From Serratia quinivorans (GTDB taxonomy: Bacteria > Pseudomonadota > Gammaproteobacteria > Enterobacterales > Enterobacteriaceae): 64,000 nt of DNA. Under the pieces are notes generated by a model. It was not told where the DNA came from. It was given only the letters and a program-made list of their open reading frames with translations, and ran no database searches. Numbering within the stretch: position 1 is the stretch's first letter; each line of letters starts with the position of its first letter. The translations under genes and the position numbers were made by a program. Positions 1-19,557 of the stretch are shown here, one piece after another. The stretch lies in contig UGYN01000002.1 of NCBI GenBank assembly GCA_900457075.1, positions 806,001-870,000 on the forward strand, read 5' to 3'.

Positions 1-1
1 T

Positions 2-520
2 CTGGCCAGCGGTGAAGCAGACATCGCCATCCGTTACAGCCCCACCGCCAATCCGCCGCCGCACTCCCGCGAACTGCTCGCCGATGCCTTCGCGCCGTTA
101 GCCAGCCCGGCCTTTCTTGCCGCGCACCCTCGTCACATTACGGTCACCGATTTGGCGCTGTCGCAGTTGATCCACTCGCCGTGGAAGGATGGACAGAAGA
201 TGGGTGTCGCCGGCTGGCAAGACTGGTTCGCCGCCTTTGGCGAAGGCACCCCGGCACCGCGCGGTATTCTCACCTTTAACAGCGTCGGCCATGCCCTGCA
301 GGAAGCGATAGAAGGTAACGGCATCGTACTCGGCAGCCTGGCAGTCGCGCAGGATGCCCTGGCCACCGGTAAGCTGGTTCGGGTGTTAGGCGACGACCGA
401 CAACTGCCCGCCGCCTACCACTACCGCCTGTGCTGGGCGGACAGCGCGTTCGTTAGCGCCACCACCCGCCGCTGGGTGAATCTGCTGCTGCAGGCGGCAG
501 ACCAACCCCCAGCGTTCTGA
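2..520 (+). CDS. LysR-family transcriptional regulator, C-terminal part (partial, GcvA-like)
   Basis: The frame is open from the left edge of the window, so the N-terminal helix-turn-helix and the start lie outside it. The visible part begins with ASGEADIAIRYSP, typical of the effector-binding domain of GcvA-type LysR regulators, and continues through VGHALQEAIEGNGIVLGS, the usual second-subdomain motif, to a normal end (RRWVNLLLQAAD). The family binds DNA as tetramers and responds to small ligands. The target genes cannot be told from this fragment. The family call is firm; the GcvA-like label is a resemblance only. Confidence 0.85.
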   Translation: MASGEADIAIRYSPTANPPPHSRELLADAFAPLASPAFLAAHPRHITVTDLALSQLIHSPWKDGQKMGVAGWQDWFAAFGEGTPAPRGILTFNSVGHALQEAIEGNGIVLGSLAVAQDALATGKLVRVLGDDRQLPAAYHYRLCWADSAFVSATTRRWVNLLLQAADQPPAF

Positions 521-595
521 CGCAGCACGTATTGCGCCCACAGCAGTGAAAAATCCAACTATTTTATAATCAATTTTTTTGCTGCGAGACACACC

Positions 596-1357
596 GTGGA
601 CAGACAACGCTACCTGCAACATATTGGATTCGCAGGCATCCCCAAGCCCGACCTCCTGACGCTGCAACAGTTACACCGCTGCCATATGCTGAGCGTACCC
701 TTTGAGAACCTGAGCATTATTTATCGCCAGGGGATTCATCTGGAGGAACCGGCGCTGTTCAATAAAATTGTCGAACGCAACCGCGGCGGCTTTTGCTATG
801 AGCTGAACCGGCTGTTTGCCGCGCTGTTGAAGGACATCGGCTTTAACGTGCAGTTTATTTCCGGCGAAATCCGCGCGCGCGACGGCAGCTTCGGCGCGCC
901 CTTCGACCATATGGCGCTGATGGTGGAGCTGGATCAGCCGTATCTGGTGGACGTGGGGTTTGGCGATTCGTTCCTGACGCCGCTGAAGATCACCACCACA
1001 GAGCAGCAACCGCAGACCAGCGGCACCTTCCATTTAGAGCAGGAGGGCGAGACTTATTACCTGGAACGCAGAAACGGCGATAATCGCTCGCATGCCAAAA
1101 CCCTGTACCGTTTCACTCTGCAGCCCCGCGAGCCGAGTGAGTTCGACGGCATGTGCCACTACCACAGCACCTCGCCGCAGTCGCATTTTACCCAGCGGCT
1201 GGTGTGTTCGCGGCCAACGGAAAATGGTCGGGTGACTATCAGCGAGAACAAACTGATTATCACCGAAGATCACCAACGCCATGAATCGACGCTGCATTCC
1301 GAAGACGAACGGCGTGCTGCGCTGATGCGGTATTTTGGTATTGATCTGGAAAGTTGA
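596..1357 (+). CDS. nhoA: Arylamine N-acetyltransferase (NAT)
   Basis: A 253-residue cytoplasmic enzyme expected to transfer acetyl from acetyl-CoA to arylamines and hydroxylamines. The catalytic triad of the family is visible: Cys67 in RGGFCYELN, His105 in FDHMAL and Asp119 in LVDVGFG, with spacings close to those of characterised bacterial NATs. The N-terminal VPFENLSI segment is also typical. The start is GTG; no better ATG lies upstream in frame. It stands alone, 75 bp after the LysR gene on the same strand, so regulation by that protein is possible but unproven. A perfect palindrome follows the stop. The gene symbol follows E. coli usage. Confidence 0.9.
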   Translation: MDRQRYLQHIGFAGIPKPDLLTLQQLHRCHMLSVPFENLSIIYRQGIHLEEPALFNKIVERNRGGFCYELNRLFAALLKDIGFNVQFISGEIRARDGSFGAPFDHMALMVELDQPYLVDVGFGDSFLTPLKITTTEQQPQTSGTFHLEQEGETYYLERRNGDNRSHAKTLYRFTLQPREPSEFDGMCHYHSTSPQSHFTQRLVCSRPTENGRVTISENKLIITEDHQRHESTLHSEDERRAALMRYFGIDLES

Positions 1358-1370
1358 GAATATCACCGTG

Positions 1371-1392
1371 GCGGATGAAGCGCTTCATCCGC
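1371..1392. terminator. Perfect 22-bp palindrome after the NAT gene, terminator-like
   Basis: GCGGATGAAGC is followed directly by its reverse complement, giving an 11-bp stem 14 bp after the NAT stop. There is no T-run on either strand, so intrinsic termination is not certain. Confidence 0.45.
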
Positions 1393-1436
1393 TAAATAGC
1401 AGCGCCTAATAGTGCTACAGATGAAGAGTGTTCAGG

Positions 1437-1607
1437 TTATGCGCCAGGCTTTCCATTCTGTTCAGCTAGTAAAATGCGCGCAAACACGTTTTCCATTTCA
1501 CTCACTTTTTTTATAAATTCTTCCGGTGAATACACTACCCCGGCGTGTGCAATATAGTGCAGCGCCATTTCACGAGATTATTGCGTCACCCATTGATTTC
1601 TTAACAT
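1437..1607 (-). pseudogene. Small ORF of about 56 residues interrupted by an in-frame TAA
   Basis: On the minus strand TAAGGA precedes an ATG at 1607 at good spacing. The frame reads MLRNQWVTQ, then TAA at 1578-1580, then continues open as SREMALHYIAHAGVVYSPEE through to NGKPGA and a stop. The downstream part looks coding (helical, acidic, phage-regulator-like in size), and CAA to TAA is a one-base change. Either it is a broken small gene, or translation restarts at the internal ATG at 1568, giving 43 residues. I do not recognise a function. Confidence 0.45.
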
Positions 1608-1672
1608 ACTCATATCCTTAAATAATAAAATTCGATCCGCCGCCATTCAGACAGCAGACTTTCGGTATAAAA

Positions 1673-2239
1673 TTAATTAAATAACTTAGACAGCTTAACC
1701 AAAGAATAGGGCGTATTATCTAAACCCAACTTCTTCAGCGCGTTGATTTTTTGGCTGCTGATGGTTTTTATGCTCTTGCTTGTTCTGCAGGCAATTGCCG
1801 TTGGACTCAAGCCTGACAAGGTAAGTTTCAGAACGTTATATTCTATAAAAGATAAAATCTCGCGTTTCCCTTCAATGCCAGAAAACGCCTCTCCCTCTAT
1901 GACTTCGCGCTCAAACACCTCAACGCCGGCCTCTTCCTCAATAAACCTAAGCGTTTTCATGGATAAATATTCCATAATTGCGATAACCCGCTTTTGCGCA
2001 ATGAAGATGATATCCCGATGTCCGTAAAAATGCGCATTCCTTAGCAAGGGTAAAATGGTTGGGTAGTCGTCATCTGTAATATGAATTAAAACTATCGCCT
2101 GACCAACATCACCCCCGCTAAAATAATCCGGCCCAATAAATGCCATTTCATAGCCTGTTTTATTTTCAAAAACGGCCTTTAATGCCAGCCTGGTGAACTG
2201 GCATTGACTCATCAATAATATTTTTTTCATTTCGGCCAA
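1673..2239 (-). CDS. LuxR-type (HTH) transcriptional regulator
   Basis: A 188-residue protein. The C-terminal 60 residues carry the LuxR/GerE helix-turn-helix pattern: LTLSGLSPTAIACRTSKSIK, then TISSQKINALKKLGL. The N-terminal half (MKKILLMSQCQFTRLALKAV) resembles a response-regulator receiver but lacks a clear phospho-acceptor Asp, so it may be phosphorylation-independent, as in the RcsB/BglJ/FimZ-type regulators around fimbrial operons. It is the last gene of the leftward island, 45 bp after the oligosaccharyltransferase. The region is AT-richer than its flanks. Regulation of the fimbriae is inference from position. The start could be either M1 or M4. Confidence 0.75.
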   Translation of the reverse strand: MAEMKKILLMSQCQFTRLALKAVFENKTGYEMAFIGPDYFSGGDVGQAIVLIHITDDDYPTILPLLRNAHFYGHRDIIFIAQKRVIAIMEYLSMKTLRFIEEEAGVEVFEREVIEGEAFSGIEGKREILSFIEYNVLKLTLSGLSPTAIACRTSKSIKTISSQKINALKKLGLDNTPYSLVKLSKLFN

Positions 2240-2284
2240 TACGCTAAAGAGTAAAAAGATTTCTGGAGTAGACAGTTATTGCCG

Positions 2285-4024
2285 TCAGAAGCTTGAGCGC
2301 GCAAACCGCCTGTCATGAGGAAACAATAACGCCGCCTCGTACCGCAGTTCATCGGCCCGAACATATTGTTGCTGTTGATACAAGATAACCAACAGGTTGG
2401 CGTAAACGTTTTTATCAATGCGGTGATTCAGATAACGCTGCGCCCATTGGGCATAGGTTTCCAGCCGCTGCTCGTCACGAGTTCGGTTAAAGGCGAGCAA
2501 GACTGCCAACTGGCGATCAAACTGCAGGCGATCGTCATGCATCCAACTCGCCCAGCCCGGCAAGGCGTCCACCTGCCGCATATCCTGCAACCCGCCGCGC
2601 TCCGCCTGGGTCAATACCAACCCGCTGTAAAACCCAGTCGCCATAACGAATAGCGCCGCCAGTGACAGGGCCAGCATCGGCAGTCGCCATCTTTTCAACC
2701 CTGCCTCGGTGCCAAGGCGCGGACTGACCAGCCGATCGAGCATTGCCAGCAACAACAGGAACACCAGCCAGTGCAGTGCCGACAGGTAAAACGGGTATTC
2801 GGTTTGGCTATGCAATGCAATCGGCAGCAGCGCCACGCATAGAGCCAACGCCTCACCCGCCGATGCCTTACCGCAGGCAAAGGCCCGCTTGTCGCGCCAG
2901 CGGGCGTGGGCCAGCAGTTTGATGCCCGCCCGCACCAAGAGCAACGCACCCAGCAGCGCGACCACGCCCCCTTCCACCCACCACAGCAGCAATTCGTTAT
3001 GCGGATGACGGGCGATTTCGGTCACCGCCGTGGGCGGGGTTTGGTTAATGCGAAAATGCTGAAAACTGTACTCAAAACCGCCGTAGCCCCAGCCAAGCAG
3101 CGGCTTTTCGGCGATCATCGCCAGCGTATCGCGCAGCATGGTGTAGCGCGCATGGTTGGAGCCGGCATGGCTGGCGTAGCGCAACGCACCGCCCAGCTCA
3201 CTCCCCCACCACAGCACCAGCACGCCCACCAGGGTGCCGCCGGCAACCAGCAGTGAGGCAATGGCGACAGCCTGCGGATGACGGCGGCAAAAACACAGGA
3301 TAAACAGCCCCAGCACCAGGGCCCCCGCCAGCCAGCCGGTGCGGGATTGCACCCACACCAACACCATCGGCAGCAGCACCAACGCCGCGGCCAGGGCGCG
3401 GCGACGCCAGCTTTCTGCACGCGGATCCAGTCGCTGGAACCCTGGCAGCACATACGCCGCCAACGCCAGCGCCAACCCGGTGGCAATAAAACTCGCCAGC
3501 ACGTTTGGCTGCTGGAATATGCCAAAGGCGCGCGAGCTGCCGGAGGGGATCCAGGATTGTGCAATTGCTGGCGCAAACAGCTGCAACAGCACGATTAATG
3601 CCTGAAGCACCGCCGCCGATAAAATCAAATACAGCACCGCATGGCGCTGGCGTGCGGTCATGCGCACCTGCAGCCAGGTGAAATAGAACGCCGCTCCGGC
3701 AAATAAACCAGCCAGCCGCCAAACGGCGGCGCTTTGCCATTCGGGCCGGGTAAATATCACCGGCAGTGCCAACAGCAAACCGGCGGCTATTATTGCGCGA
3801 CAGGTCGGCGTTATCACAACCCGGCACAGCGGTGTTGCCCGCCAGCAAACACCCATTAATAGAGCCGCTCCGCCGTAGACCAGCAGATTAAACGGCAGCG
3901 CCAGCCCCGCGCCACCGCGATTGGGGATATAGATCGCCAGTGGTACAAAAAGTAAAAAGACAAATAGGAGAAAAATACGATCGAAGATCATTGGCATTAC
4001 CGTATTAAAAATTGGCGAAAACAT
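2285..4024 (-). CDS. PglL/Wzy-family O-oligosaccharyltransferase or O-antigen ligase-like membrane protein
   Basis: A 579-residue polytopic membrane protein with about 12 hydrophobic segments. Family landmarks visible in order are AFGIFQQPNVLASF (QPN motif), VQSRTGWLAGAL, GWGYGGFEYSFQHF, RHPHNELLLWWVEGG (the large periplasmic loop with HPHNE) and LPIALHSQTEYPFYLSALHW. The last is characteristic of PglL/PilO bacterial O-oligosaccharyltransferases rather than plain Wzy polymerases. PglL enzymes move a lipid-linked glycan to Ser/Thr of exported proteins, classically pilins. It lies 190 bp downstream of the fimbrial adhesin on the same strand, so a fimbrial subunit is a natural candidate acceptor, but this is inference. 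The start is uncertain among M1, M10 and M12; no strong Shine-Dalgarno is visible. Confidence 0.8.
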   Translation of the reverse strand: MFSPIFNTVMPMIFDRIFLLFVFLLFVPLAIYIPNRGGAGLALPFNLLVYGGAALLMGVCWRATPLCRVVITPTCRAIIAAGLLLALPVIFTRPEWQSAAVWRLAGLFAGAAFYFTWLQVRMTARQRHAVLYLILSAAVLQALIVLLQLFAPAIAQSWIPSGSSRAFGIFQQPNVLASFIATGLALALAAYVLPGFQRLDPRAESWRRRALAAALVLLPMVLVWVQSRTGWLAGALVLGLFILCFCRRHPQAVAIASLLVAGGTLVGVLVLWWGSELGGALRYASHAGSNHARYTMLRDTLAMIAEKPLLGWGYGGFEYSFQHFRINQTPPTAVTEIARHPHNELLLWWVEGGVVALLGALLLVRAGIKLLAHARWRDKRAFACGKASAGEALALCVALLPIALHSQTEYPFYLSALHWLVFLLLLAMLDRLVSPRLGTEAGLKRWRLPMLALSLAALFVMATGFYSGLVLTQAERGGLQDMRQVDALPGWASWMHDDRLQFDRQLAVLLAFNRTRDEQRLETYAQWAQRYLNHRIDKNVYANLLVILYQQQQYVRADELRYEAALLFPHDRRFARSSF

Positions 4025-4214
4025 AGCATGCGTAATTCGGATTTGAGCTTGATTCCCCCGTGTCTATTTCAGCCAGCCCCGTTTATCGGCGGTATGTGCC
4101 CATCATGACGGGCAGTATACCGGTGTCCGGCCCCCGCCGCCGGGGTGTCATGGCTCGGGTGGGTTGGTGACATCCAAGTCCGCACAATATTGGGTTGGAC
4201 CCGTCACCAAATGA
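4025..4214. other. 190-nt non-coding gap with strong hairpins between adhesin and oligosaccharyltransferase genes
   Basis: No ORF. At 4091-4121 GGTAT/ATACC and TGCCC/GGGCA form a nested stem. At 4164-4210 TTGGTGAC pairs with GTCACCAA, and inside it TCCAA pairs with TTGGA, extended by TCC/GGG past a bulged G. A short CCCC/GGGG stem lies between them. Neither large hairpin is followed by a T-run on either strand, so these are not ordinary intrinsic terminators. It could be a structured RNA or an mRNA-stabilising 3' end. Confidence 0.5.
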
Positions 4215-5009
4215 TTAGTTGTACGACACGTTGACTATCGCGCTGCCCGTAAATTGACCGGCACCAAGCAAATCGAGACTCACGCCCCGTACACGCAGCG
4301 GGAGTTTCTCAGCGACGTTGCGGTGCGCCTTGACGGTTTTGGGTTTCCCAAATCCGGCGCCCCAGTCGAGGAGCGCATAGGAGTCCGAAGCCCCCCCCAG
4401 GGGGATCCGTTCCCGGCTATTCGTCTCGATCAACACAGAGGCCTCGTCGGTACAGGTCAGGGTGACGTTGTTTACATTTACTGTAGGCGCGGTACCCCCG
4501 AGAGCGGCATGCAGATCCACGTTGATGTTGTTTGGTTTTACGTCACAAGTCTTAGCCTGTACTATCCCCTTTGCGCAATTTGATACGATCGTCCCCTCGA
4601 TCATCTCCCCGGAAATGCCGGCTGCTAGCACTACACACGGGTTATCCCCTAGTCCCGCCGGAAGGTAGTCCGACCCATTGCGGTTTTTGTCACGCACCGA
4701 ATTCCACCACTCTTCGAGTGTGGGGTAGCTATTCGGCGGTTTTGATGATGTATATCCTTCGACGTCGGCCGTCACATATCCGCCCCGGCCTGCGGGGAGC
4801 CAAAGTTCATCAATCGTATAGAGGCTTAGCCGGCAAAGATTACCGTAAGCCCAGCATGGGTTGTTCTCGCCGGGTGACGGACCTCCCACAACTCGAGCAG
4901 TGAAATATCCATTCACTGTTTCAGGTACGGTGATAACGGAAATGAGCATGGTCGCACTCACATACATGGGGGATAAATATAGAAGGGTCGCGAGCAGATG
5001 GTTCTTCAT
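4215..5009 (-). CDS. Probable fimbrial tip adhesin (MrpH/PapG-like two-domain)
   Basis: A 264-residue exported protein with signal peptide MKNHLLATLLYLSPMYVSA. The first 150 residues form a unique domain with Cys52, Cys59, Cys125 and Cys145. The last 110 look like a pilin domain: Cys155 and Cys186 bracket VKPNNINVDL and TVNVNNVTLTC, and the end is GSAIVNVSYN, the donor-strand style terminus of chaperone-usher subunits. Longer than the other subunits and last in the cluster, it fits a tip adhesin. It has few His residues, so the His-based zinc site of MrpH is not evident. Its codon use and base composition are visibly less GC-rich than the adjoining genes, suggesting separate origin or exchange. 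It starts 38 nt after the RT stop with a weak ribosome binding site. Confidence 0.65.
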   Translation of the reverse strand: MKNHLLATLLYLSPMYVSATMLISVITVPETVNGYFTARVVGGPSPGENNPCWAYGNLCRLSLYTIDELWLPAGRGGYVTADVEGYTSSKPPNSYPTLEEWWNSVRDKNRNGSDYLPAGLGDNPCVVLAAGISGEMIEGTIVSNCAKGIVQAKTCDVKPNNINVDLHAALGGTAPTVNVNNVTLTCTDEASVLIETNSRERIPLGGASDSYALLDWGAGFGKPKTVKAHRNVAEKLPLRVRGVSLDLLGAGQFTGSAIVNVSYN

Positions 5010-5047
5010 AAATATGTCTCTGTATTTTCTCTATCCGGCAGATACCG

Positions 5048-6025
5048 CTAAATATCATCCAATGAATGACCCAGTATTCCTTCTGCCCATATTGCCCACC
5101 GTGCCTCGTACGTTCGCACCCGCGATTCAGTCTCTGTCGATGACAGCCCCTGTCGGCGAGCCTGCTCATAAAGCCGCGCGCGTCGTGCACGATGGTTTTC
5201 CAGCGCTCTGGGCGCTATGGTGGACCCCGTGGGGGTAAACCATACCCCCAGCCAGTCAAAACCCTGTGCAATCCTGCCCAGTTGGGTTTTGTCCGGGTGG
5301 GTTTCAAACCCGCCCAGGTCAAAAAATTCATGCAGCCGCTTAACGCTGCGCCGCAGTTGCCAGCGGGTGCGGGTAAACAGCAAAAAGTCATCCATATATC
5401 GCGCATACCACAGGCCCTCCTGGGCGTTAAAAAAACTGTCAACATGATGCAACAGGCTGCCGCCAATCAGCGGGCTCAGCGCACAACCCCGGCAGATGCC
5501 GCTGGGTGGGGTATAAAACTCACCGCCGTCTTCTACGCTGTAATGCACGTATTGCTGAATCACATCAAACAACACCGGGTCGGCCACATGCCATTTCAGC
5601 TGATTGATCACCTGATGCTTACGGATATGCCGGTAGTAACCGCGAATGTCCGTTCGGTAGACAAAGGCATATTCTCCGCCGGTCAAGGCAGCCCGTACTT
5701 CCGCTACCGAAACCACGCTACCGCCATGCCCGCGCAAGTGCATGCAACGGGCAGGTTTTGGCAGCAGGGGCTCCGCCAGCAGCGCAGCCCACTTCAATAT
5801 CAGCGCATCCTGCGCGCACCACTGCACCCAACTGCGGCTACCACGCCGCAATACCTGCATCGGTGCCAGCCGGTAATCCCCACTTTGCAGTTGCTGATAC
5901 AGCCGGTCGTCCTGCTGCGCCCAGTGAAAGCGCAAATGCCAAATGTCGGCATTGGGTGGCGCGTGGCGGCGACGTTGGCACAGCCAGCGCCAGGCGGCTT
6001 GCCATGCCGCCGCGCGGTTATTCAT
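5048..6025 (-). CDS. Stand-alone reverse transcriptase inside the fimbrial operon
   Basis: With the chosen start the protein has 325 residues. Palm motifs are intact: FVYRTDIRGYY (121-131, metal-binding Asp126), GICRGCALSPLIGGSLL (176-192), YARYMDDFLLF (207-217 with the YMDD catalytic Asp pair), THPDKTQLGR (242-251) and GFDWLGVWF (255-263). No maturase, endonuclease, protease or other fused domain is visible. The start at 6025 is chosen because ATGAATAA overlaps the stop of the preceding pilin gene by 8 nt, the same coupling style used throughout this operon; an in-frame ATG at 6070 would add 15 residues inside the pilin gene. It lacks the retron VTG signature and no group II intron RNA is evident. 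From memory it resembles stand-alone bacterial RTs with the TRWxLRRxV...HPDKTxxGR...GFDxLG pattern and no settled function. Its role here is unknown. Confidence 0.9.
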   Translation of the reverse strand: MNNRAAAWQAAWRWLCQRRRHAPPNADIWHLRFHWAQQDDRLYQQLQSGDYRLAPMQVLRRGSRSWVQWCAQDALILKWAALLAEPLLPKPARCMHLRGHGGSVVSVAEVRAALTGGEYAFVYRTDIRGYYRHIRKHQVINQLKWHVADPVLFDVIQQYVHYSVEDGGEFYTPPSGICRGCALSPLIGGSLLHHVDSFFNAQEGLWYARYMDDFLLFTRTRWQLRRSVKRLHEFFDLGGFETHPDKTQLGRIAQGFDWLGVWFTPTGSTIAPRALENHRARRARLYEQARRQGLSSTETESRVRTYEARWAIWAEGILGHSLDDI

Positions 6026-6545
6026 ATTCCAGGCTAAAGGTCGCCACCGCGCTGAACGGCCCGCGTTCAATGGTTTTATGCTTCAACGCGTCCGGTTCAC
6101 CCTGCACATAAGCCTGTGCCGTCAGGGTGTTGGCCCCGCTCACCAATGCCTGTGCCTTGCCTTGCTGGTTAATGGGTAAGGGATCACCCTGCGGGGTTTC
6201 CATACCGATGGCGATGCCGCTGGCCTGGCTGGCACCGTTTAGCGCCAGCAACCCCGGCAGCGCGGTGCTTTCATTACCGCTGAAGGTCACCCTGACCGTT
6301 TTGCCCAGGCTGAGATCGCACTGCGCCAAATGCAGCTTGAAGGGTTGGCCGTGGGTGCGGGTGTTCAGATACAGGTACTTGTCGATTACCGTGTCAAAAT
6401 CCAGCACCACCGTTTCATCGCCCGGCGGGATCACGCAGGGTTCGGCCACCAGCGCGCCATGCAGGCGCATATTGTCCGCCGCCAGACTCAACGGGCTGCA
6501 CAGCAGCAGCGCCGCAGTTGCGCACCAACCTGCTTTATTCACCAT
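6018..6545 (-). CDS. Fimbrial minor subunit (FimA/MrpG-like)
   Basis: A secreted pilin of about 175 residues with a signal peptide ending SPLSLAADNM. The core shows one Cys in AEPCVIPPG and a second in LAQCDLSLG, the standard pilin disulfide, then VRVTFSGNES and a C-terminal FSAVATFSLEYE donor-strand-like end. The ATG at 6545 is preferred over the ATG at 6563 because GGAG lies 7 nt before it; the upstream ATG overlaps the previous stop as ATGA. Its own stop overlaps the RT start by 8 nt. It is likely an adaptor or tip-proximal subunit. Confidence 0.85.
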   Translation of the reverse strand: MVNKAGWCATAALLLCSPLSLAADNMRLHGALVAEPCVIPPGDETVVLDFDTVIDKYLYLNTRTHGQPFKLHLAQCDLSLGKTVRVTFSGNESTALPGLLALNGASQASGIAIGMETPQGDPLPINQQGKAQALVSGANTLTAQAYVQGEPDALKHKTIERGPFSAVATFSLEYE

Positions 6546-6559
6546 GGTTCTTCTCCGGC

Positions 6560-7036
6560 TCATTGGTACACCGCCAGCAGGGTGGCCGTGGCCTCAAATG
6601 CTCCTTCCTTCAGCGCTGCGCCCGGCCGTTTGACCGGCACTGCTTCCAGTGTGGGCGGCGCGTTCAGCTTGATGGGGATCGGTTGATTCAACGTAAACCG
6701 CTTGCCGTTTTGCAGCAGGCGAACGGCCAGATCGTCCACGTTGCTCTCGATCGCCGCCTCGTCGTAATCCGCCGGGGTGCCGACCACTTCCAGCGTCATG
6801 CTCCATGCCCCGGCACCGGGGCCGCAGGTGATCCGGTAGTTCACCGGTTGCAGGTAGTTAACGCCATCCACCTTGGTGACCCCGACTCGGTTGCCGAAAT
6901 CGACATCCACCTCGCCGCCGTCGTTGATGGTGCACGGCGGCGGTTCGATCAGCGTGCCGGAAAAACGCATGTTGTCCGCCGCCACAGCCGGGCCGCCGAG
7001 GGCCATTAACAGAAAAATGCTGCCGTATCGCGCCAT
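6560..7036 (-). CDS. Fimbrial minor subunit (MrpF-like)
   Basis: About 158 residues, with a signal peptide ending GGPAVAADNM. PPPCTINDGGEVDVDFGN and RITCGPG hold the two pilin cysteines, and it ends FEATATLLAVYQ. It is clearly paralogous to the next subunit upstream (shared PPPC...IN...VDFGN and TxEVVPVKxxGA patterns). A GTG at 7054 overlaps the upstream stop as GTGA and is an alternative start; the ATG at 7036 has GGGG at suitable spacing and the better signal peptide. It acts in the periplasm and outer surface as a chaperone-usher subunit. Confidence 0.82.
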   Translation of the reverse strand: MARYGSIFLLMALGGPAVAADNMRFSGTLIEPPPCTINDGGEVDVDFGNRVGVTKVDGVNYLQPVNYRITCGPGAGAWSMTLEVVGTPADYDEAAIESNVDDLAVRLLQNGKRFTLNQPIPIKLNAPPTLEAVPVKRPGAALKEGAFEATATLLAVYQ

Positions 7037-7050
7037 TGCCTCAGCCCCTT

Positions 7051-7548
7051 TCACTGGTATTCCACCTTCATCGTCGCCCCGGCAGAAAACGCCCCACCGC
7101 TCAGCGTCGCCCCGGCCTGCTTGACCGGCACCACCTCAAACGTCGGCATATTGGGGTAGGTAAAATTCACCCAGGTGTTGATCGGCTGCCGATTACCGTT
7201 GCGCAACAGCGCCACCCCCAAATCATCCTTGTTAGTTTGCAGTACATCGCTGTCAAAACCGGCGCCGGTCCCCTGAATTTGCATTTTCATTGCATTGTTC
7301 GGCGCATTTTTGCACTCCACCGAGTACACCACCTGCTGTTTCTTGTAACTGCCGTCGATGCGGGTGGTCATCACGTCGTTACCGAAATTCACTTCGATCA
7401 GGTTATTGTTGTTAATCACGCACGGCGGCGGCGCGACGATGGTCACTGTCACTTTGATCGTAGTGACCGCCTGCACCTGCTGGCCGTACAACAACACCAA
7501 CGCCGCCAACCCACAGCCGGGTAAACACTGTCTAAACCTTGCCTTCAT
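7051..7548 (-). CDS. Fimbrial minor subunit (MrpE/F-like)
   Basis: 165 residues. The start at 7548 overlaps the stop of the previous subunit as ATGA. A signal peptide (MKARFRQCLPGCGLAALVLL, cleaved near VQAVTT) precedes a pilin domain with APPPCVINNNNLIEVNFGN and YSVECKNAP. The end, GAFSAGATMKVEYQ, is donor-strand-like. The open frame runs upstream into the preceding gene only because that gene carries a frameshift; the apparent 388-residue fusion is not a real protein. Its closest visible relative is the next subunit downstream. Confidence 0.83.
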   Translation of the reverse strand: MKARFRQCLPGCGLAALVLLYGQQVQAVTTIKVTVTIVAPPPCVINNNNLIEVNFGNDVMTTRIDGSYKKQQVVYSVECKNAPNNAMKMQIQGTGAGFDSDVLQTNKDDLGVALLRNGNRQPINTWVNFTYPNMPTFEVVPVKQAGATLSGGAFSAGATMKVEYQ

Positions 7549-8217
7549 GCCCATTCCCTTAGTCCATAGCTGAGCTGGAAATCCACCACCGCCGCATAAG
7601 GGCCGGGCAGCAACGGTGCGCGGGTGCGTTCCGGCGTAATGCGGTAGTTCAGCACGTTCTGTCCCACGGCCAGGGCCAACGGTGCCCCCCCGGCTGCCAA
7701 GGCGGATATCCCCGTCGCGCTCATCACTAATGCGCAATGCCAGCCCGGAAGCACCATGCACTTTGACCAGCTCCGGGTTATCGGCGTCCGCCGGGGCGAT
7801 AAAACTGACCGACACCGCCGGCTGCTGGGCGCTCCACAACAGGTTGCCGGTGCGCTGATCCCGGTTGGCGGCCGGACCGCGCAAGCAGTCGCGCAGGTGC
7901 AGCTGCACATTTACCGGCACGCCACGATCCCCCGCCTTCGCCAGCTGTGCCGTAGCGGTACTGCCCAGCCACACCGCCTGATACGCGCTCGCCATCTCCA
8001 GCCGGCAGGCGCTTTCGGTCAGCTCGCCGCGCACATGCAGCACGCCATGGGCGCCTTCCACCTGCCAGTTATCCGCCGCGATGGCTGACGGCATCAGCCA
8101 TAACATTGCGCAGACGCACAATGGCACCATCAACGCCGCTGCGGTAATCACCAGGGCATACAACCATTCATGGCGGTGGTAACCGCCGCCGTTCCATCGC
8201 CGGGATGTTGTTCGCAT
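7545..8217 (-). pseudogene. Fimbrial minor subunit interrupted by a +1 frameshift in a 7-base C/G tract
   Basis: Starting at 8217, a long signal/anchor (ALVITAAALMVPLCVCAMLW) leads to AADNWQVEGAHGVLHVRGEL and a pilin core with ESACRLEM and LRDCLRG cysteines. The frame is good to RISDERDGDIRLGSRG and then is lost at a run of seven C (plus strand 7685-7691). With six C it would continue APLALAVGQNVLNYRI and on to AAVVDFQLSYGLREWA, a normal pilin end, with a stop overlapping the next ATG. The damage is either assembly error, natural inactivation, or a slippage switch; the abundance of similar errors elsewhere in this window favours the first. Confidence 0.75.
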
Positions 8218-8245
8218 CGCTTATCCACCTGTTTTTCAGTGAGCC

Positions 8246-8995
8246 TTATTTGCTGCCCGCCACCGCCTGGCAGCTCGCGCCGTTACAGTTAAAACTCAGC
8301 TGCGGGCGGCCGCCGTAGTCGTTGACGTAGGTCAGCACCGGCGCGTTGCCCAGTGCAGACGCAGCAACTTTCAGCGGCGCACTGCCCTTGGGCGCCACCA
8401 TCAAGGGTTCGAAGCCCGGCGCGCTGGCACCATCTTTTTTGCTGCTGGCGTCAACCAGCGTCACGTAATACGGCGTCGGGTTATTCACCTGGTAGCTGTC
8501 GCCCTGTTTGGTCAGGGTCAGTTTTTCCTGCCACGGCGCGCTGGCTTCCGGGTTGACTATCGCAATCGCCTTCGGCCGGTAGAACAGCTTGATGCGTGTT
8601 TGCAGCGCCAGTTGCAGCGTATTCGGCTTGTCGCTCTTCGGCGGGATCTCGCGCAGGTTGAAGTAGAACAGCGTTTCGCGGTCCTGCGGCAGCGTATTGG
8701 CGGCCGGCAACCCCTGCACCTTCACCTGGCTTTTGGCCCCCGGCTCCAGGCGCTGCACCGGCGGCAATACCGTCAATGGGCTGGTGATTTTTTTGCCGTT
8801 GGCGTCTTCGATCCAGCCCTGCGCCAGGTAAGGCAGCTGCTTATTCTCGTTGCTGATGCTCATGCTCACCGACTTGTCGCCGCCGCTGAAAATCACCCGG
8901 GTGCGGTCCAGCGCGATGGCGGCCGTTGCCTGTTGGGCGCACAGCAGGCCCGCCAGGCCGCCGGCAATTAATGTCACTAGATTATTGGTTTTCAT
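8246..8995 (-). CDS. Fimbrial periplasmic chaperone (PapD/MrpD family)
   Basis: 249 residues with a signal peptide ending QQATAAIALD. The first immunoglobulin-like domain carries the family signatures: ALDRTRVIFSGGDKSVSMSI, LPYLAQGWIED, and LPQDRETLFYFNLREIPP, the strand that contains the donor motif and the conserved subunit-binding basic residues (Arg in DRTRV, Lys in RIKLFYRP). It folds subunits in the periplasm by donor-strand complementation and delivers them to the usher encoded 6 bp upstream. Its end, with paired Cys in FNCNGASCQ, is typical of MrpD-like chaperones. Confidence 0.93.
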   Translation of the reverse strand: MKTNNLVTLIAGGLAGLLCAQQATAAIALDRTRVIFSGGDKSVSMSISNENKQLPYLAQGWIEDANGKKITSPLTVLPPVQRLEPGAKSQVKVQGLPAANTLPQDRETLFYFNLREIPPKSDKPNTLQLALQTRIKLFYRPKAIAIVNPEASAPWQEKLTLTKQGDSYQVNNPTPYYVTLVDASSKKDGASAPGFEPLMVAPKGSAPLKVAASALGNAPVLTYVNDYGGRPQLSFNCNGASCQAVAGSK

Positions 8996-9001
8996 TGTTC
9001 T

Positions 9002-11548
9002 CTACTCTTTAACAGTGTTTAACGCCTTGCCGTTGGCCACCGGGCCGCAAGGCAGTAACAGATTGGTTAATTCGCTCGGCGACAGCGTCTGCGGCAGGGT
9101 AAGGCCGCACTGCTCCGCGCCGCCCCAGCTCACGCTCATCGCTTCCCCGGCATTAATACCGCTCAGGTACACTTCGCCGTTGTCATTGATAATGCCCACC
9201 TCCTGCCGCTTGCCGTTGCGCACCGTGGCGCCAAACGGCGGGGCAGAACCGTCCGCCAGCCGCACGACCGCCATCGCCTTCTCGCCGGCGATCACCTCGA
9301 AGTGCCGGTAGCCAATGGCGCCTTCGGTCAGGGTGGCCTGCGCCACGCTCTGGCTGACGTCGGCGTTTTCCGGCAACGCATTCAGATCGATACTGAACTG
9401 GTTGCGGTAGTAACTGCCGACGTCCACCACCACCGCCTTGCCGAACGCATTTGTCAGCGTCGGTGAGCTGTAACCGCGGATCGGGATCCCCGGCACGCCG
9501 TCGGTATCCAGCAACATGCGGGTGCCCCCACTGATGCTGCTCCGGTGCAAGGCCGCGCCTTTCAGGGTGGCGGTCGCGCCGCCCTGCATCGACAGCCCCA
9601 GCGAGCTGTACTGCCCGGCCTGGTAGCTGGCGCTGGCGTTCACCTGGCTGAGATCGCCGCTGTGGCTGTAGTAACCGCTGGCGGTCGCGCCGCTGCGCGC
9701 AGTGCCGGCGCTCACCTGATAGGTGTCGCGCTCATTGAGCCGGTCGTAATACCCCACCTGATGGGTGTTATCGTTGCGGTTGTAGCTGCCGCTGTAGCTC
9801 AGCGAGCCGTTGCTGCCCCACGGCAGCGACAGCGACAGGTACATGCCGTCGTCGTTGGTGCCGTTATATTTATTGCGATAGCCGGTCAGCGACAGGCTGA
9901 TATTCCGGAAACGCCCCAGATCGAAATAGCGCGACAGCGTCAGGTTATAACGGTCATTGGCCGGCCGGTCCCAGTAGGTCTGGTGGTTGTAATTGAGGTA
10001 GGCACTCAACCCCAGGTCACGGAACTGCTGGTTAAAGGTGATGGTGTACATCTCCTTGCTGCTGTTGGTTCGCGTGCCGTCGCGACGGGCATCCAGGTAT
10101 TCGCCCATCGACATATAGTTACGCTCCGAGAAGCGGTAGCCGGCAAAGGTCACCTGGCTGTCATAGTCGTCAAAGCGCTTGGAATAGCTCAGGCGGTATG
10201 AACCGCCGCTCAGCGTGCCCTGTTGCGGCAGATTGGCGCGCGACTGGGTGGCGTCGAACGACAGAGCGCCAAACATCATCAGGTCACGCCCCACCCCCAG
10301 CGCCAGCGCGTTGTAATCGCCGCCCGCCACGCCGCCGCCGTACAGCGACCAGCCGTTGCTCACGCCCCAGGAAAACTCGCCGGTGCCGAACATCGGCCCG
10401 TCGCTGTGGTGCTGCCAGTCAGCCGGCCGACCGGCCGCTACTTTGTAACGCACCGAGCCCGGTCGGGTCAGGTACGGGATGCTGGCGGTGTCCATCTTGA
10501 ACTCCTGCACGCTGCCGTCCTGCTCTTCCACCCGCACGTCCAGCTGGCCGCTGACCGCGTCGTTGATGTCCTGAATGCGGAACGGCCCCGCCGCCACCTG
10601 GGTTTCATACAGCACGCGCCCTTGCTGGCGGATTATGACTTTCGCATTGCTGCGCGCTATCCCCGTCACCTCCGGCGCATAGCCGCGCAGGTTGGGCGGC
10701 AACATGTTGTCGTCGGTCACCAGGCTGGCACCGGCGAAGCGGAAACTGTCGAAGATGTCGGAATTTAAATAGTCCTCACCCATCGTCAGCCTGGCACCCA
10801 GCTTCGGCAGTGCGCGGTAGGCGTAGTAACGGCTCCAGTCCCAGCTGGTGCGAGTCGGCTCGCCGGAACCGCCCTGGTGATCCAGCCGCGATTGCCAGTC
10901 AGCCCGCAGTCGCCAGGCCCCCAGATTGCCGCCCAGCGTGCCATTGCCGCTGAGGTTATAGCTCTGCGTGCCCTGCTTTTGCTGGCGCTGGCTTTGCGCA
11001 TTCAGGTTGTAATCAAACAGCACCCCCGGGATACCCTCGTCCCAGCGCGAAGGCGGGTCCCAGTTTTCTGCGGTGTATTCCAGGTACGCCTGCGGAATAT
11101 TCAGGTACAGTGCCGCCGCGCCTAAATCGCCGCGCACTTCCATCCCCTCCAGGCTATGGGGATCCAGACACTGGTTTTGGTGCCACCAGGTCAATTTCAG
11201 TAATGCAGATTCTTTTAACCCCAGTTGTTCAACCAACTGCGGCGTAATACAGGCTTCACTGCCTCTGGCATCGTCATCCGGCGGATAAAACGCCACTGGC
11301 TGATCGGTTAATGTCTGTTTATTAATGTGCACGGCAAACAGATAATCACCGGGCATAATAAAGTTGCCGCGAGAAAACTGCTCCAGGTCAATATTGGCGC
11401 GATCCGTCACATCCAGTACGTCGGTATTGAATTCAATATCAGCAGCTACAGCGCAGGCAGCATTCCCCGCCAGAATAAAGGCGATCAACAGCCCCAGAAT
11501 TCTCGGTCGTATCTTCCCTATACAGCCATATGACGGAGTAGTTGACAT
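9002..11548 (-). CDS. Fimbrial outer-membrane usher (FimD/PapC/MrpC family)
   Basis: 848 residues, usual usher length. The signal peptide ends ACAVAADIEF. The N-terminal chaperone-binding domain reads FNTDVLDVTDRANIDLEQFS, followed by GDYLFAVHINKQ. The pore region starts near DYNLNAQS with the conserved GxNLGAWRLRADW segment, the plug region near ITGIARSNAKVIIRQQGRV, and repeated beta-strands such as FNQQFRDLGLSAYLNYNHQTYW. The C-terminal domains hold GVPGIPIRGYSSPTLTNAFG and PPFGATVRNGKRQEVGII and end with a paired-Cys domain. It is the assembly platform and pore for the fimbria encoded around it. Confidence 0.95.
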   Translation of the reverse strand: MSTTPSYGCIGKIRPRILGLLIAFILAGNAACAVAADIEFNTDVLDVTDRANIDLEQFSRGNFIMPGDYLFAVHINKQTLTDQPVAFYPPDDDARGSEACITPQLVEQLGLKESALLKLTWWHQNQCLDPHSLEGMEVRGDLGAAALYLNIPQAYLEYTAENWDPPSRWDEGIPGVLFDYNLNAQSQRQQKQGTQSYNLSGNGTLGGNLGAWRLRADWQSRLDHQGGSGEPTRTSWDWSRYYAYRALPKLGARLTMGEDYLNSDIFDSFRFAGASLVTDDNMLPPNLRGYAPEVTGIARSNAKVIIRQQGRVLYETQVAAGPFRIQDINDAVSGQLDVRVEEQDGSVQEFKMDTASIPYLTRPGSVRYKVAAGRPADWQHHSDGPMFGTGEFSWGVSNGWSLYGGGVAGGDYNALALGVGRDLMMFGALSFDATQSRANLPQQGTLSGGSYRLSYSKRFDDYDSQVTFAGYRFSERNYMSMGEYLDARRDGTRTNSSKEMYTITFNQQFRDLGLSAYLNYNHQTYWDRPANDRYNLTLSRYFDLGRFRNISLSLTGYRNKYNGTNDDGMYLSLSLPWGSNGSLSYSGSYNRNDNTHQVGYYDRLNERDTYQVSAGTARSGATASGYYSHSGDLSQVNASASYQAGQYSSLGLSMQGGATATLKGAALHRSSISGGTRMLLDTDGVPGIPIRGYSSPTLTNAFGKAVVVDVGSYYRNQFSIDLNALPENADVSQSVAQATLTEGAIGYRHFEVIAGEKAMAVVRLADGSAPPFGATVRNGKRQEVGIINDNGEVYLSGINAGEAMSVSWGGAEQCGLTLPQTLSPSELTNLLLPCGPVANGKALNTVKE

Positions 11549-11602
11549 CCGCAGACCCTTATCAATAATTATTTAATTCGCAGTGACAACGTTCAGACAG
11601 GT

Positions 11603-12148
11603 TTAGTAGTAATCCATTTTAAAGCGCACGGTGGAGTAATAACTCCCGGCCTTCATTACCTGATTATTGCCCATCAACCGCAGGCCATAATTAAATTCCA
11701 TGGTACCGGGTTGTAATTCATTTTTTGCCATAGATATACCCGGTGCGGCGACATTCCCCCGCTTATCGGATATTTGCAGGGCAATGCCCTTGGCGTTTCC
11801 GTCAATACCAAATAACCCGGCATCTTCTCTGCCATCAAAGGTCACGGCAAAATATCGCCAGTCATCCAACGCAGGGTTGAATTTCTCCAACGTGCAGTTC
11901 ACCAGTTTAATATTGAATTCATGCAACTCACCCTGGCCATCACGAATAATCTGGCTGACGGGTAATGTCGCCAGGGTAATGGTTTGATCAAGGCTTTCGG
12001 TATCAATGGCGCAGGCGGAGGCGATAATTCTACCGTTCACGGTAACCTCACCACGCCCTTGGTTGGCAGCGTGCGCCAAAGAGGAACACAGCAACAGATT
12101 AACTAACACCGCGCGCCGTAATATCCTTTTTCCACGCTGTGAATGCAT
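11603..12148 (-). CDS. Fimbrial minor subunit (MrpB-like, pilus anchor or terminator candidate)
   Basis: 181 residues with a signal peptide ending SSLAHAANQG. The pilin core has ASACAIDTESLDQTITL and LVNCTLEK cysteines and ends SYYSTVRFKMDYY. The start at 12148 is chosen because GGGAGG precedes it closely; an in-frame ATG 15 nt upstream lies on the wrong side of that ribosome binding site. It shares the AANQGxGxVTxxGxII opening with the major subunit. Its place between major pilin and usher matches MrpB, a chain-terminating subunit in MR/P-type operons; that role is inference. Confidence 0.85.
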   Translation of the reverse strand: MHSQRGKRILRRAVLVNLLLCSSLAHAANQGRGEVTVNGRIIASACAIDTESLDQTITLATLPVSQIIRDGQGELHEFNIKLVNCTLEKFNPALDDWRYFAVTFDGREDAGLFGIDGNAKGIALQISDKRGNVAAPGISMAKNELQPGTMEFNYGLRLMGNNQVMKAGSYYSTVRFKMDYY

Positions 12149-12179
12149 ACTCCCTCCCCACATAGCAAGTTAATAAGCA

Positions 12180-12200
12180 GCATGCGGGTACCCCGCATGC
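12180..12200. terminator. Intercistronic hairpin between major pilin and the next gene
   Basis: GCATGCGGG and CCCGCATGC form a perfect 9-bp stem with a 3-nt loop, 30 bp after the major pilin stop. No T-run follows. Such hairpins commonly stabilise or attenuate major-pilin mRNA so that it exceeds downstream genes. Confidence 0.6.
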
Positions 12201-12230
12201 AATTAACTGTGCGAATTAATCGCCGTGGGC

Positions 12231-12755
12231 TTATTGATACGCCAGGGTAAAGTCAGCAACAGAGTTGAATTCACCCGGGGTGATGGCAGCAGAAGCGCCG
12301 TCGCCCTGCAGGTGGGCGCTGAAGCGCAGAGTAGACTCGCCGTCTTCAATTTTCACCGGTTTACTGGCTGTAGTCAGCGGCAGCAGTTTACCGTCAACGT
12401 CGTTGATGGCGATGCTGGCACCACGTGCAGAGCCTTTCATAGCCAACAGGCCTGGCGCTGCTTCAGACTCGCTACCGGTAAATGTGGTAGTTACATCTTT
12501 AGCGGTTTCAACATCACAACCCACCAGCTTGATCAGAATATCCTGCGGCGTAGACTTGCCGCCGTTTTTCAGCTGTGCAGAGGCGATATCGCCCAGTTTC
12601 ACAGTTTGATCCAGGCTACCAGGTTCAATAGAGCATGGTGCATCAATGATTGAGCCTTTAAAGGTTACGGAGCCGCCACCCTGGTTAGCCGCGTTAGCCA
12701 TAGAGATAGTACCCAGAGTCATTACCGCAGCCAGCATGATTTTGTTCAGTTTCAT
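12231..12755 (-). CDS. Major fimbrial subunit (FimA/MrpA-like pilin)
   Basis: 174 residues with a clean signal peptide (MKLNKIMLAAVMTLGTISMA, cleaved after ANA). The mature pilin begins ANQGGGSVTFKGSIIDAPCS, with the second Cys in KLVGCDVETA. The Gly two residues from the start of GSVTF and the end VADFTLAYQ are standard for donor-strand exchange. First gene of the leftward operon, it has codon usage typical of a highly expressed gene. The promoter must lie in the AT-rich region to its right. Confidence 0.93.
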   Translation of the reverse strand: MKLNKIMLAAVMTLGTISMANAANQGGGSVTFKGSIIDAPCSIEPGSLDQTVKLGDIASAQLKNGGKSTPQDILIKLVGCDVETAKDVTTTFTGSESEAAPGLLAMKGSARGASIAINDVDGKLLPLTTASKPVKIEDGESTLRFSAHLQGDGASAAITPGEFNSVADFTLAYQ

Positions 12756-13157
12756 TGTGTTAATTCCATATATACAATTAGTTTAATAAAGAAAGTGTCC
12801 TTGTGCTTACGCAGCCACTAGCCACTCTTATTTTTTCGCCGCTACAGAGAATCTTGCTAGCCCCCTGTTTTGGCGATGTGAAAATGATACCCCTACCAGA
12901 AACTAAACAGCAAAATAAACTAAATAACCATAAATCAACAACATTAAAAACCAAAAAACATCAATAAATTATATTTTTAAACCGATAATTATCAAATCAA
13001 TGGCATCAAGAAGATTATTACACCAGAATAAAAATAATAAATTATCGCCACTGGAATTTTCTTATGTATGAAATGAGATTTTTCTTGAAAACCAAGTAAT
13101 CTTCGCTAGGATAGCGGCTAACGACAACACCTGCTCATCCACATAAAACTTATAAAC
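12756..13157. promoter_or_regulatory. AT-rich divergent regulatory region of the fimbrial operon
   Basis: 402 bp without a gene and strikingly AT-rich, with A/T runs and curved-DNA character (for example around 12930-13050) that would suit H-NS silencing. It separates the fimbrial operon (leftward) from the ToxR-like regulator (rightward). I see no inverted-repeat pair bounding an invertible promoter and no recombinase gene nearby, unlike the mrp and fim switches. Confidence 0.55.
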
Positions 13158-13991
13158 ATGAAATACATCATAAATAAAATCGTTGTTTTTAACTCTGACG
13201 AATTGACACTATTTCTCTACGAGAATAACCAGATCGTCACCAAACTGACTAAACCGGCAAGCCGGTTGTTGTTGGAACTAATACAGAACAACAAGAAAAA
13301 CATTACCCGGGATGACCTCCTCGAAAGGGTATGGACCACCTATGGTTTCACCGCTTCTAATGCCGGATTAAATAATTACATCAGCGAACTGCGTAAGGCA
13401 TTCGCACTTTTGGGCCTGGTGAACGAAATTATCGTGACTATTCCTAAACTGGGGTTTCGCTTTGAAGCCGATATTGTTCTTACAGAAGCCATGTTGCTGC
13501 CCTCAGAGCCGATGGACAGCCAGGGAGACAACCCCAATAACAAAGTAGAAGTAGAAGTAGAAGTAGAAAACAAAATTATTGAAAAAGGAGCTTCAAAAAA
13601 AAGCTTTCATCCGCGCTCATTCACAAAAAACAAAAAAATCACCGTTTTTATAATACTGGCCGTAGGGGCATTACTGATAGCAATACTGATATCCAGGTAT
13701 AAAGAGCATCATAATTACGCCCCCTACACCAAGGTGTCTGAGTTGAGTAACTGTGAAATTTACGTTATTGGCCATGCGGAAACAGATACCAGCAATACAA
13801 AAAAAGTAATAGACGTGCTTAATGATAAAAAGATTGATTGTGTAAGCAGTGAGAAGGACGTTTTTTACTCAGAAGACAAATTTGATAGCAAATTACAAAG
13901 AGCAATGCTGATTTCAGTTTGCAGTAAAAACAACGAAAACCATTATGATAACTGCTTAAACCTCAAAATACAGAGAGACGCATTAAAATGA
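13158..13991 (+). CDS. Membrane-anchored winged-helix regulator (ToxR/CadC-like)
   Basis: 277 residues. Residues 1-105 form an OmpR/PhoB-type winged helix (TKPASRLLLELI, RDDLLERVWTTYGF, NYISELRKAF, IVTIPKLGFRFEA). An acidic linker, then one transmembrane segment at 161-179 (ITVFIILAVGALLIAILIS), then a periplasmic domain of about 95 residues with Cys199, 228, 255 and 266. This is the ToxR/CadC layout, where a periplasmic signal controls DNA binding from the membrane. The linker contains four GTAGAA hexamers (13545-13568) coding EVEVEVE. It is divergent from the fimbrial operon, so control of that operon is the natural guess. Its stop overlaps the next ATG as ATGA. Confidence 0.85.
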   Translation: MKYIINKIVVFNSDELTLFLYENNQIVTKLTKPASRLLLELIQNNKKNITRDDLLERVWTTYGFTASNAGLNNYISELRKAFALLGLVNEIIVTIPKLGFRFEADIVLTEAMLLPSEPMDSQGDNPNNKVEVEVEVENKIIEKGASKKSFHPRSFTKNKKITVFIILAVGALLIAILISRYKEHHNYAPYTKVSELSNCEIYVIGHAETDTSNTKKVIDVLNDKKIDCVSSEKDVFYSEDKFDSKLQRAMLISVCSKNNENHYDNCLNLKIQRDALK

Positions 13992-14485
13992 AAAATATAC
14001 TCATAGCCTTTAATGCCATTCTTTTTTTTGTATTTTTTTCATTATCTATTCGCGCCGATGAACCTTTTAAGTGCGCATCGCAATACCAATTGCTGATAGA
14101 AAGAGATAATGACTTCACCTCATTTATTGGACGGGTGAATTTGTTTCTAACGGATGATACGGAAGGTTTTTTCAACATCATTGGCACCGTTAAGACGAAA
14201 GAACGTAGCTACTGGCTCTCCAGAAGTAGCTACTTCTCGCTTTCGCCTCTCTCCAGAAGTAGCTACTTCTCGCTTTCGCCTAATGAAACCAATAAGTTTA
14301 AAACCATGAAAATAACCAAAGTAGTCAAACACTCCATAGACTCGACCCCAGAGGACATCTGGTCAAGGGATATCTTGATCGACTCACCTGGCGTTGAGTT
14401 TCATATAGAAATGGCACACTTAAAAGATAATGCGATACTGATAAAAAGTATCAATACTCCGCATCTTATTTGTGCAAAAAAATAA
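13988..14485 (+). CDS. Small exported protein of unknown function, partner of the ToxR-like regulator
   Basis: 165 residues with a signal peptide (NAILFFVFFSLSIRADE). Not recognised. The ATGA overlap with the regulator implies co-translation, reminiscent of ToxR-ToxS pairs where the second protein protects or tunes the sensor, but no ToxS similarity is evident. The middle contains an exact 33-bp tandem duplication (14216-14248 and 14249-14281) giving SRSSYFSLSP twice, and each copy contains a perfect 16-bp palindrome. Two Cys (C29 and near the end) remain. The region is AT-rich like the rest of the island edge. Confidence 0.6.
   Translation: MKNILIAFNAILFFVFFSLSIRADEPFKCASQYQLLIERDNDFTSFIGRVNLFLTDDTEGFFNIIGTVKTKERSYWLSRSSYFSLSPLSRSSYFSLSPNETNKFKTMKITKVVKHSIDSTPEDIWSRDILIDSPGVEFHIEMAHLKDNAILIKSINTPHLICAKK
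14216..14281 (+). repeat. 33-bp perfect tandem duplication within a coding region
   Basis: Two identical 33-bp units in frame (11 residues each). Each includes the palindrome AGAAGTAGCTACTTCT (14222-14237 and 14255-14270), which could drive slippage or hairpin formation. Confidence 0.9.
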
Positions 14486-14512
14486 TCTTTTCTATCAAAG
14501 AGATAAATTAGC

Positions 14513-14544
14513 GCGGGTTATCACCGAGGTAACCCGCCGCTTTT
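14513..14544. terminator. Bidirectional terminator between the exported-protein gene and dusC
   Basis: GCGGGTTA pairs with TAACCCGC around a 9-nt loop, followed by CGCTTTTG on the plus strand. It serves converging genes on both sides. Confidence 0.7.
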
Positions 14545-14550
14545 GTCACG

Positions 14551-15480: not shown

Positions 15481-15561
15481 GTTCACCCCTGCTAAAAAAG
15501 ACGCGCAATGATACGGGGGAATGCCCGCAGCAGACAAGCATCTCTGGGGAATAAAACCGCG

Positions 15562-16521: not shown

Positions 16522-16545
16522 CTTCGGCTCCGGGATTAGGCAAAA

Positions 16546-16995: not shown

Positions 16996-17007
16996 TATCT
17001 TCTCCGG

Positions 17008-17787: not shown

Positions 17788-17842
17788 GGAAGGCTCTTTT
17801 CCTTGCTTTTGACCACACTGTAACATTTTTTCCGGTCAGGCG

Positions 17843-17925: not shown

Positions 17926-17947
17926 GTTTCGTTTCTGGAGTCATACT

Positions 17948-19555: not shown

Positions 19556-19557
19556 CC

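Follow-up and report, generated by a model that had tools for sequence, protein, structure and literature searches.

A hypervariable zone directly 3' of UG4-family reverse transcriptases in fimbrial operons, and a possible template-repeat-free mechanism of adhesin diversification

Why should a stand-alone reverse transcriptase (RT) gene lie within a chaperone-usher fimbrial operon, directly before the gene for the probable tip adhesin? The question is raised by a 64,000-nt stretch of the Serratia quinivorans genome (contig UGYN01000002.1, positions 806,001 to 870,000; hereafter the window). An earlier note, made from the letters alone, described such an RT, took its place in the operon to imply co-expression with the fimbria, and suggested that it may diversify or regulate the adhesin or take part in phage defence. 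The RT gene and all motifs named there were confirmed by a motif check, as was the gene order, on one strand, from the last minor pilin through the overlapping RT start and the short spacer to the adhesin ORF (Table 1).

Table 1. Features of the fimbrial locus, with positions in the window unless another locus is named.
Feature	Position	Strand	Remark
O-antigen ligase / PglL-like gene	2285-4024	minus	conserved right flank of hypervariable zone
Hypervariable zone (by sequence comparison): spacer end, adhesin, ~220 nt non-coding	3992-5017	minus	without DNA homology to sister-species operon
Predicted MrpH-like two-domain fimbrial tip adhesin	4215-5009	minus	264 aa
Spacer from RT stop to adhesin start, 38 nt	5010-5047	minus	left border of zone here or in last RT codons
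UG4-family reverse transcriptase	5048-6025	minus	325 aa, YMDD active site intact
Last minor pilin, StfG/SteF-like	6018-6563	minus	stop overlaps RT start by 8 nt
Minor pilin, StfF-like	6560-7054	minus	profile scans
388-aa ORF with two pilin-like parts	7051-8217	minus	looks like two adjoining pilin genes fused
Periplasmic chaperone, StfD-like	8246-8995	minus	profile scans
Outer membrane usher	9002-11548	minus	profile scans
Pilin-like subunit	11603-12163	minus	Fimbrial 21.3 bits, under cut-off 25.6
Major pilin, StfA-like	12231-12755	minus	profile scans
PglL/LuxR-type pair	window 1673-4024; L146 10925-13259; L148 9066-11318		by eye outside window

Compared with RT family profiles, the window RT was assigned to UG4 (unknown group 4), with the PADLOC profile RT_UG4 as its best match (477 bits, residues 5-318) and the runner-up at 95.7 bits. 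Pfam detected RVT_1 only. The NCBIfam model group_II_RT_mat scored 83.8 bits against a cut-off of 300, with no maturase domain by Pfam, and the retron NCBIfam model scored 28.5 bits against a cut-off of 235. Among known Rfam families, intron and retron RNAs included, none reached its gathering score in window positions 1-14000, and no tRNA that might mark a tRNA-linked island was found within positions 1-20000. Phage relatives of the RT amounted to six records, all remote RTs covering 42-57% of the query. The label “transposase” that some of these RTs carry in public records looks like a misnomer. Residue D126 and the YMDD motif were invariant among 28 aligned RT homologues, and dN/dS values of 0.12-0.19 in four Serratia pairs and 0.13-0.36 in E. 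albertii pairs indicate that the UG4 RT is under purifying selection. The predicted structure resembles G2L4 and DGR RTs, with the G2L4 group II intron-like RT (9d4s) as best Foldseek match (TMq 0.78, 16% identity in the alignment) and a TM score of 0.75 against the DGR RT 8ub7. G2L4 RT, the closest fold, reportedly acts in double-strand break repair; the UG4 RT differs from it in being shorter (325 versus 408 residues) and tied to adhesins.

The association of UG4 RTs with fimbriae is already published. In the portion of PMC8934634 available to us, fimbrial domains are given near 66% of UG4 RTs, and neither a function nor hypervariability of a 3' zone is given; the window RT is of the same family and has the same fimbrial neighbourhood, with fimbrial genes nearby. 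Among open-licence papers, covered largely at abstract level, we found no function for UG4, no hypervariable zone tied to the RT, and no proposal of the mutator set out below.

The window operon is Stf/Mrf-like, running from major pilin through pilin, usher, chaperone and minor pilins to RT and adhesin. The window adhesin itself has drifted below Pfam recognition; the MrpH_C domain was matched on one member of the adhesin family and is precomputed on three, and the AlphaFold model (pLDDT 82.6) aligns to the MrpH RBD and to FimH/PapG pilin domains, which supports its description as an MrpH-like predicted tip adhesin. Operon layout and predicted adhesin fold are thus shared with MR/P fimbriae, whose tip adhesin is MrpH, and the difference lies in the RT between last pilin and adhesin. 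Public records call some adhesin homologues (P0004, P0006, P0013) “abortive infection protein”, apparently another misnomer. A pilin-like tail lies in another frame (7545-7910) near the 388-aa ORF, so that the first of its two pilin genes may be frameshifted.

Several further observations concern the surroundings of the operon. The PglL/O-antigen-ligase-like gene, possibly with a role in pilin glycosylation, is followed by a LuxR-type regulator gene, and this pair recurs directly 3' of fimbrial operons with or without an RT. A winged-helix regulator and a FidL-like protein adjoin the window operon (13158-14485) and, by eye, also L006 (13447-14698). A 556-aa ORF elsewhere in the window (37967-39637) lacks codon bias (z 1.1) and any Pfam match, and its start resembles, by eye, beta-helix tail-spike proteins. 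The window genome (G000) gives 13 usher matches and contains some twelve chaperone-usher operons, of which four are closely related (70-100% usher identity). A second related fimbrial operon of this genome keeps approximately the last third of a UG4 RT before its adhesin (G000:C2:3595443-3595793; L035 9944-10312).

Comparison with related operons revealed where conservation ends. When the window is set against S. proteamaculans or S. inhibens, usher, chaperone, last two pilins and RT share 92-99% protein identity; a query from part of the 388-aa ORF was left out of this comparison. The next gene behind the RT drops to 38% identity with its S. proteamaculans counterpart (41-42% for a second, displaced adhesin there) and had no tblastn match in S. 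inhibens. At the DNA level, both sides of the zone are 89-94% identical to L004 and L005. Homology to L004 ends at 5017, with ends at 5082 (L005), 5050 (L030), 5033 (L039) and 5012 (L008) elsewhere, and it resumes at 3991 in L004, L005, L030 and L008, giving one common right border. Pairing of 36 full-length RT loci by an RT HSP of at least 850 nt and at least 80% identity yielded 57 non-independent pairs. The match ended between -126 and +31 nt from the RT stop in 55 of the 57 (81.6-98.4% identity, 19 loci), the distance being counted in either locus and the lower figure being stretched by the extended C-termini of some RTs; in the other two pairs the RTs are 99.9% identical. On these alignments, hypervariability marks the ~1 kb that follows the RT on its 3' side, and a hypervariable receptor-binding gene lies beside the RT as it does in DGRs.

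We consider it probable, at about 0.6, that UG4 is a targeted diversity generator that needs no template repeat and acts on the DNA that follows its own gene on the 3' side. The RT would make error-prone cDNA from RNA that extends out of its own gene over the following ~1 kb, and this cDNA, or repair using it, would overwrite the same chromosomal stretch. That stretch would be a receptor-binding adhesin (a tip adhesin, an autotransporter tip or another surface protein), rewritten while RT and pilus machinery stay fixed. Causation by the RT, the downstream transcript as template and replacement of the target by cDNA are all steps that we infer. The main and serious rival, which we regard as unlikely, is allele exchange, by which homologous recombination between conserved flanks would swap in tip adhesins from a large old pool, with the RT as passenger or anchor. 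Such recombination accords with the conservation of both flanks (RT and downstream gene), with the patchy and often plasmid-borne distribution of UG4 and with adhesins at ~25% global amino acid identity in strains whose RTs are 98.4% identical, and recombination with unseen alleles could produce both clustered substitutions and saturated divergence. It accords less well with a scrambled zone that takes in non-coding DNA, and no donor copy was found in the window genome.

Operons without an RT also speak against allele exchange. One operon type of this family lacks an RT and is found at seven Serratia loci with equally conserved flanks; there, homology ran through the tip ORF unbroken in 21 of 21 pairs (82.6-95.6%). 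This ORF is a clear MrpH adhesin of the kind found in MR/P fimbriae, with MrpH_N and MrpH_C in both of the two scanned (MrpH_N 144 and 142 bits). L179-L188 (45 pairs) and L197-L198 likewise showed no break and were left uncounted, since in these the pilin is not immediately followed by a clear adhesin. L117 and L146 were dropped as RT-less controls because they have no orthologues near enough: among the non-self matches listed for the genus, none extended into the adhesin, the best was only 80%, and paralogues were mostly at 65-75%. With matches this distant, the conserved control is one operon type. L192, also considered as an RT-less control, had no pair of at least 80% identity; three tandem adhesin-like ORFs occupy its positions 1589-4649 in an operon without detectable RT, and one of them, L192b, lacks codon bias (z 0.6).

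Divergence in the zone extends to synonymous sites. Between E. albertii L199 and L200, the pair with RTs at 98.4% identity, the RT has dS 0.026 and the adhesin, its synonymous sites saturated, has pS 0.795; between L131 and L200, dS is 0.067 for the RT and 2.2 for the adhesin; and between the window and L004, RT dS is 0.29 and adhesin pS 0.77-0.82. At fourfold sites, 73-83% of positions differ between the window adhesin and those of L004a, L004b and L008, where random letters would give 75%. Given this saturation of synonymous sites, and adhesin dN/dS values of 0.19 and 0.48 for the two distant pairs that allowed the calculation, selection on the protein is not the driver, and a purely selective explanation was rejected. 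The substitution spectrum of the zone is also unlike that of the flanks, a further point against allele exchange: for L131-L200, transitions and transversions number 24:34 in the zone versus 358:198 in the flanks (p 9e-4), a ratio that higher divergence alone would lower somewhat.

Very close strains allow recent change to be located. Across the 10,898 nt that align between the E. albertii plasmids L079 and L199, there are 12 substitutions and two 1-nt indels. All of the substitutions lie within one 198-nt part of the adhesin, between +113 and +310 relative to the RT stop (p 7e-15). Taken singly, nine of them alter the protein; three codons are hit twice, and adhesin dN/dS is 0.87. Substitutions at A number 7 of 12 under one polarity and 1 of 12 under the other, and the pooled fourfold sites of the adhesins have A at 0.20 and T at 0.21. 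Among six E. coli goat plasmids, the stretch of 6,924 nt that ends at the RT stop is free of differences (6,314 nt in one record); differences from the reference number 1-3 in the 877-nt zone and 1-2 in the 4,100 nt beyond. Bit scores are the source of these counts, in which the same event may figure more than once. Change in the zone is not constant, since only one of five substitutions lies in the adhesin for L131-L132, and a Salmonella Javiana pair has an identical zone, with no difference in 1,479 nt. The comparison of adhesins among close strains that the earlier note had called for finds substitutions clustered in the adhesin for L079-L199, though not in every pair. The diversification that the note had suggested, one of its three proposals, is supported by the break in 55 of 57 pairs, the RT-less control, the 12-substitution cluster and the saturated synonymous sites.

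Codon usage provides a second line of evidence. The window adhesin is without codon bias (z 0.4-0.7, the lowest value among the 48 ORFs of 200 aa or more in the window, median 14.6), and RT-linked adhesins have a median z of 2.6 (range 0.2-6.9, n=32, leaving out L083 and L073 with 19 and 15 in-frame stops as read). Strong bias is seen in the matched MrpH adhesins of RT-less operons (z 10-18). Other RT-less tip ORFs of the window genome range from z 2.1 to 13.4 and can be weakly biased, and uniform codon use, being therefore not specific by itself, was weakened as stand-alone proof. Alleles of long Serratia residence would nonetheless be expected to carry codon bias, which again tells against allele exchange. 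So does composition, in that adhesin GC3 stays within 0.41-0.64 while ushers and chaperones span 0.35-0.88 (31 loci), though a correlation with the operon remains (slope 0.24, r 0.57, p 9e-4), so that host composition still has some pull on the adhesin. The most telling of the composition data come from two Salmonella autotransporters, in which codon usage shifts at the RT-proximal tip only, 993 and 690 nt short of the end that faces the RT: it is biased up to that point (GC3 0.82 and 0.86), and GC3 is then 0.62 and 0.64 in the tip itself (logLR 88 versus null maxima of 41 and 39, 20 permutations each).

Neighbours of the RT were also read at other loci, as the earlier note had proposed. Of 30 Serratia genomes, 6 had UG4-profile matches at E 1e-30, one being partial, and so did 21 of the 394 genomes covered for the order; many of the latter are probably group II introns with low scores. 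Frames of 390-460 aa matching “UG4” near 110-125 bits look like group II introns and were left out. By tblastn, 60 of 72,556 plasmid records had matches, 43 with at least 80% coverage, some remote RTs included. In most regions read, the RT stands directly before an ORF of ~200-360 aa without an adhesin name, in usher operons of Stf/Mrf, PefC/AfrB and other types; several RTs among the loci read are fragments. In Vibrio, a broken RT closes a TcfC-type cluster; in Photobacterium, a broken RT is convergent with the last gene of a PefC operon; and on the two Salmonella plasmids, the RT is convergent with an inverse autotransporter. Two more Salmonella plasmids match the RT 3' part and autotransporter stalk at ~94% in two pieces, with an unmatched gap of roughly 0.6 and 1.4 kb from coverage figures, and in a third, 993 nt of the RT match at 96.9% before the match stops. 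Distant UG4-like RTs or fragments (L120, L126 and, similarly, L123 and L127) are convergent with single secreted proteins, and the partner is a PEP-CTERM protein in two of the three partners scanned (L120 and L126), with the RT 3' end again facing it. Since the RT is convergent with surface-protein genes at these loci, its 3' end abuts a surface-protein gene in either orientation. The fimbrial linkage on which the earlier note had based co-expression is real, but it is only part of the picture: the partners range from Stf/Mrf-, PefC/AfrB- and TcfC-type clusters to inverse autotransporters and, in the case of distant RTs, PEP-CTERM proteins, and what the RT keeps company with is the adhesin, not any single usher type.

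Searches for a template gave negative results. No DGR template/variable repeat pair was found in window positions 3000-7200, where the sole direct repeat touching the adhesin is 27 nt at 70% match, and the window genome holds no second adhesin copy at the DNA level (best match 22 nt, E 0.06); a protein relative at 26% identity lies in an RT-less operon (L117) of that genome. For the E. albertii plasmids L079/L199, a plasmid search returned the adhesin itself and chance-level matches only. The ten proteins of the operon region that were scanned included none named as an Avd accessory protein, as known from DGRs. The remark in the earlier note that no hallmarks of known RT systems are visible was therefore right for template repeats, for Rfam families at gathering score and for a second genomic template copy.

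Tandem units at two loci suit allele exchange and also a further explanation. Plasmid p14VA2 (L039) carries two complete adhesin units with a common 3' end, the second with an RT 3' fragment only, followed by a third RT 3' remnant (10500-13505), and L004 has a similar copy of the RT 3' end before an extra adhesin (11951-12971). Whole units of RT 3' end plus adhesin therefore also move or duplicate. The RT might make LINE-like, 5'-truncated copies of the RT-adhesin mRNA, with cassette arrays recombining and drift supplying diversity; the fragments at these two loci and the lone 3' half of an RT found on a chromosome of E. coli (L130) fit such retro-copying. We think it improbable, as an RT 3' fragment before a second adhesin is present only in L004 and L039 of the 11 loci listed, some fragments are N-terminal instead (L034, L124), and the 12-substitution patch is left unexplained. 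A role for UG4 in phage defence or in some other DRT-like system, expressed by way of the fimbrial operon while strong selection varies the adhesin, is likewise scarcely probable. PADLOC files RT_UG4 under DRT (as a model name only) and the dN/dS of the very close pair would fit, but synonymous sites are saturated too, dN/dS in the two distant pairs is 0.19 and 0.48, and the partners are surface proteins.

A generator of diversity acting 3' of the RT would resemble a DGR in setting an RT beside a fast-varying surface receptor-binding gene. It would differ in that no template/variable repeat pair was found, the scrambled span of ~1 kb includes non-coding DNA, and no clear adenine-only pattern is seen, the share of substitutions at A depending on the polarity assumed. 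UG4 would work like a DGR but, as no template repeat was found, is not classed as one. A bolder form of this proposal, to which we give somewhat less than even odds, is that UG4 represents a categorically new mutator in which the 3' extension of the RT transcript is both template and target, so that any DNA within ~1 kb behind the RT, in either orientation, would be continually rewritten and receptor-binding tips would be parked there.

If the proposal is correct, UG4 would be a second route, besides DGRs, by which reverse transcription is aimed at bacterial surface proteins, and its targets would be the adhesins that set what the cell or plasmid host binds. This would explain why fimbrial tips on enterobacterial plasmids turn over so very fast. 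A mutator without template repeats could serve as a simple tool for the continuous evolution of a chosen 1-kb stretch, and the question of what these orphan RTs do becomes directly testable by sequencing one locus.
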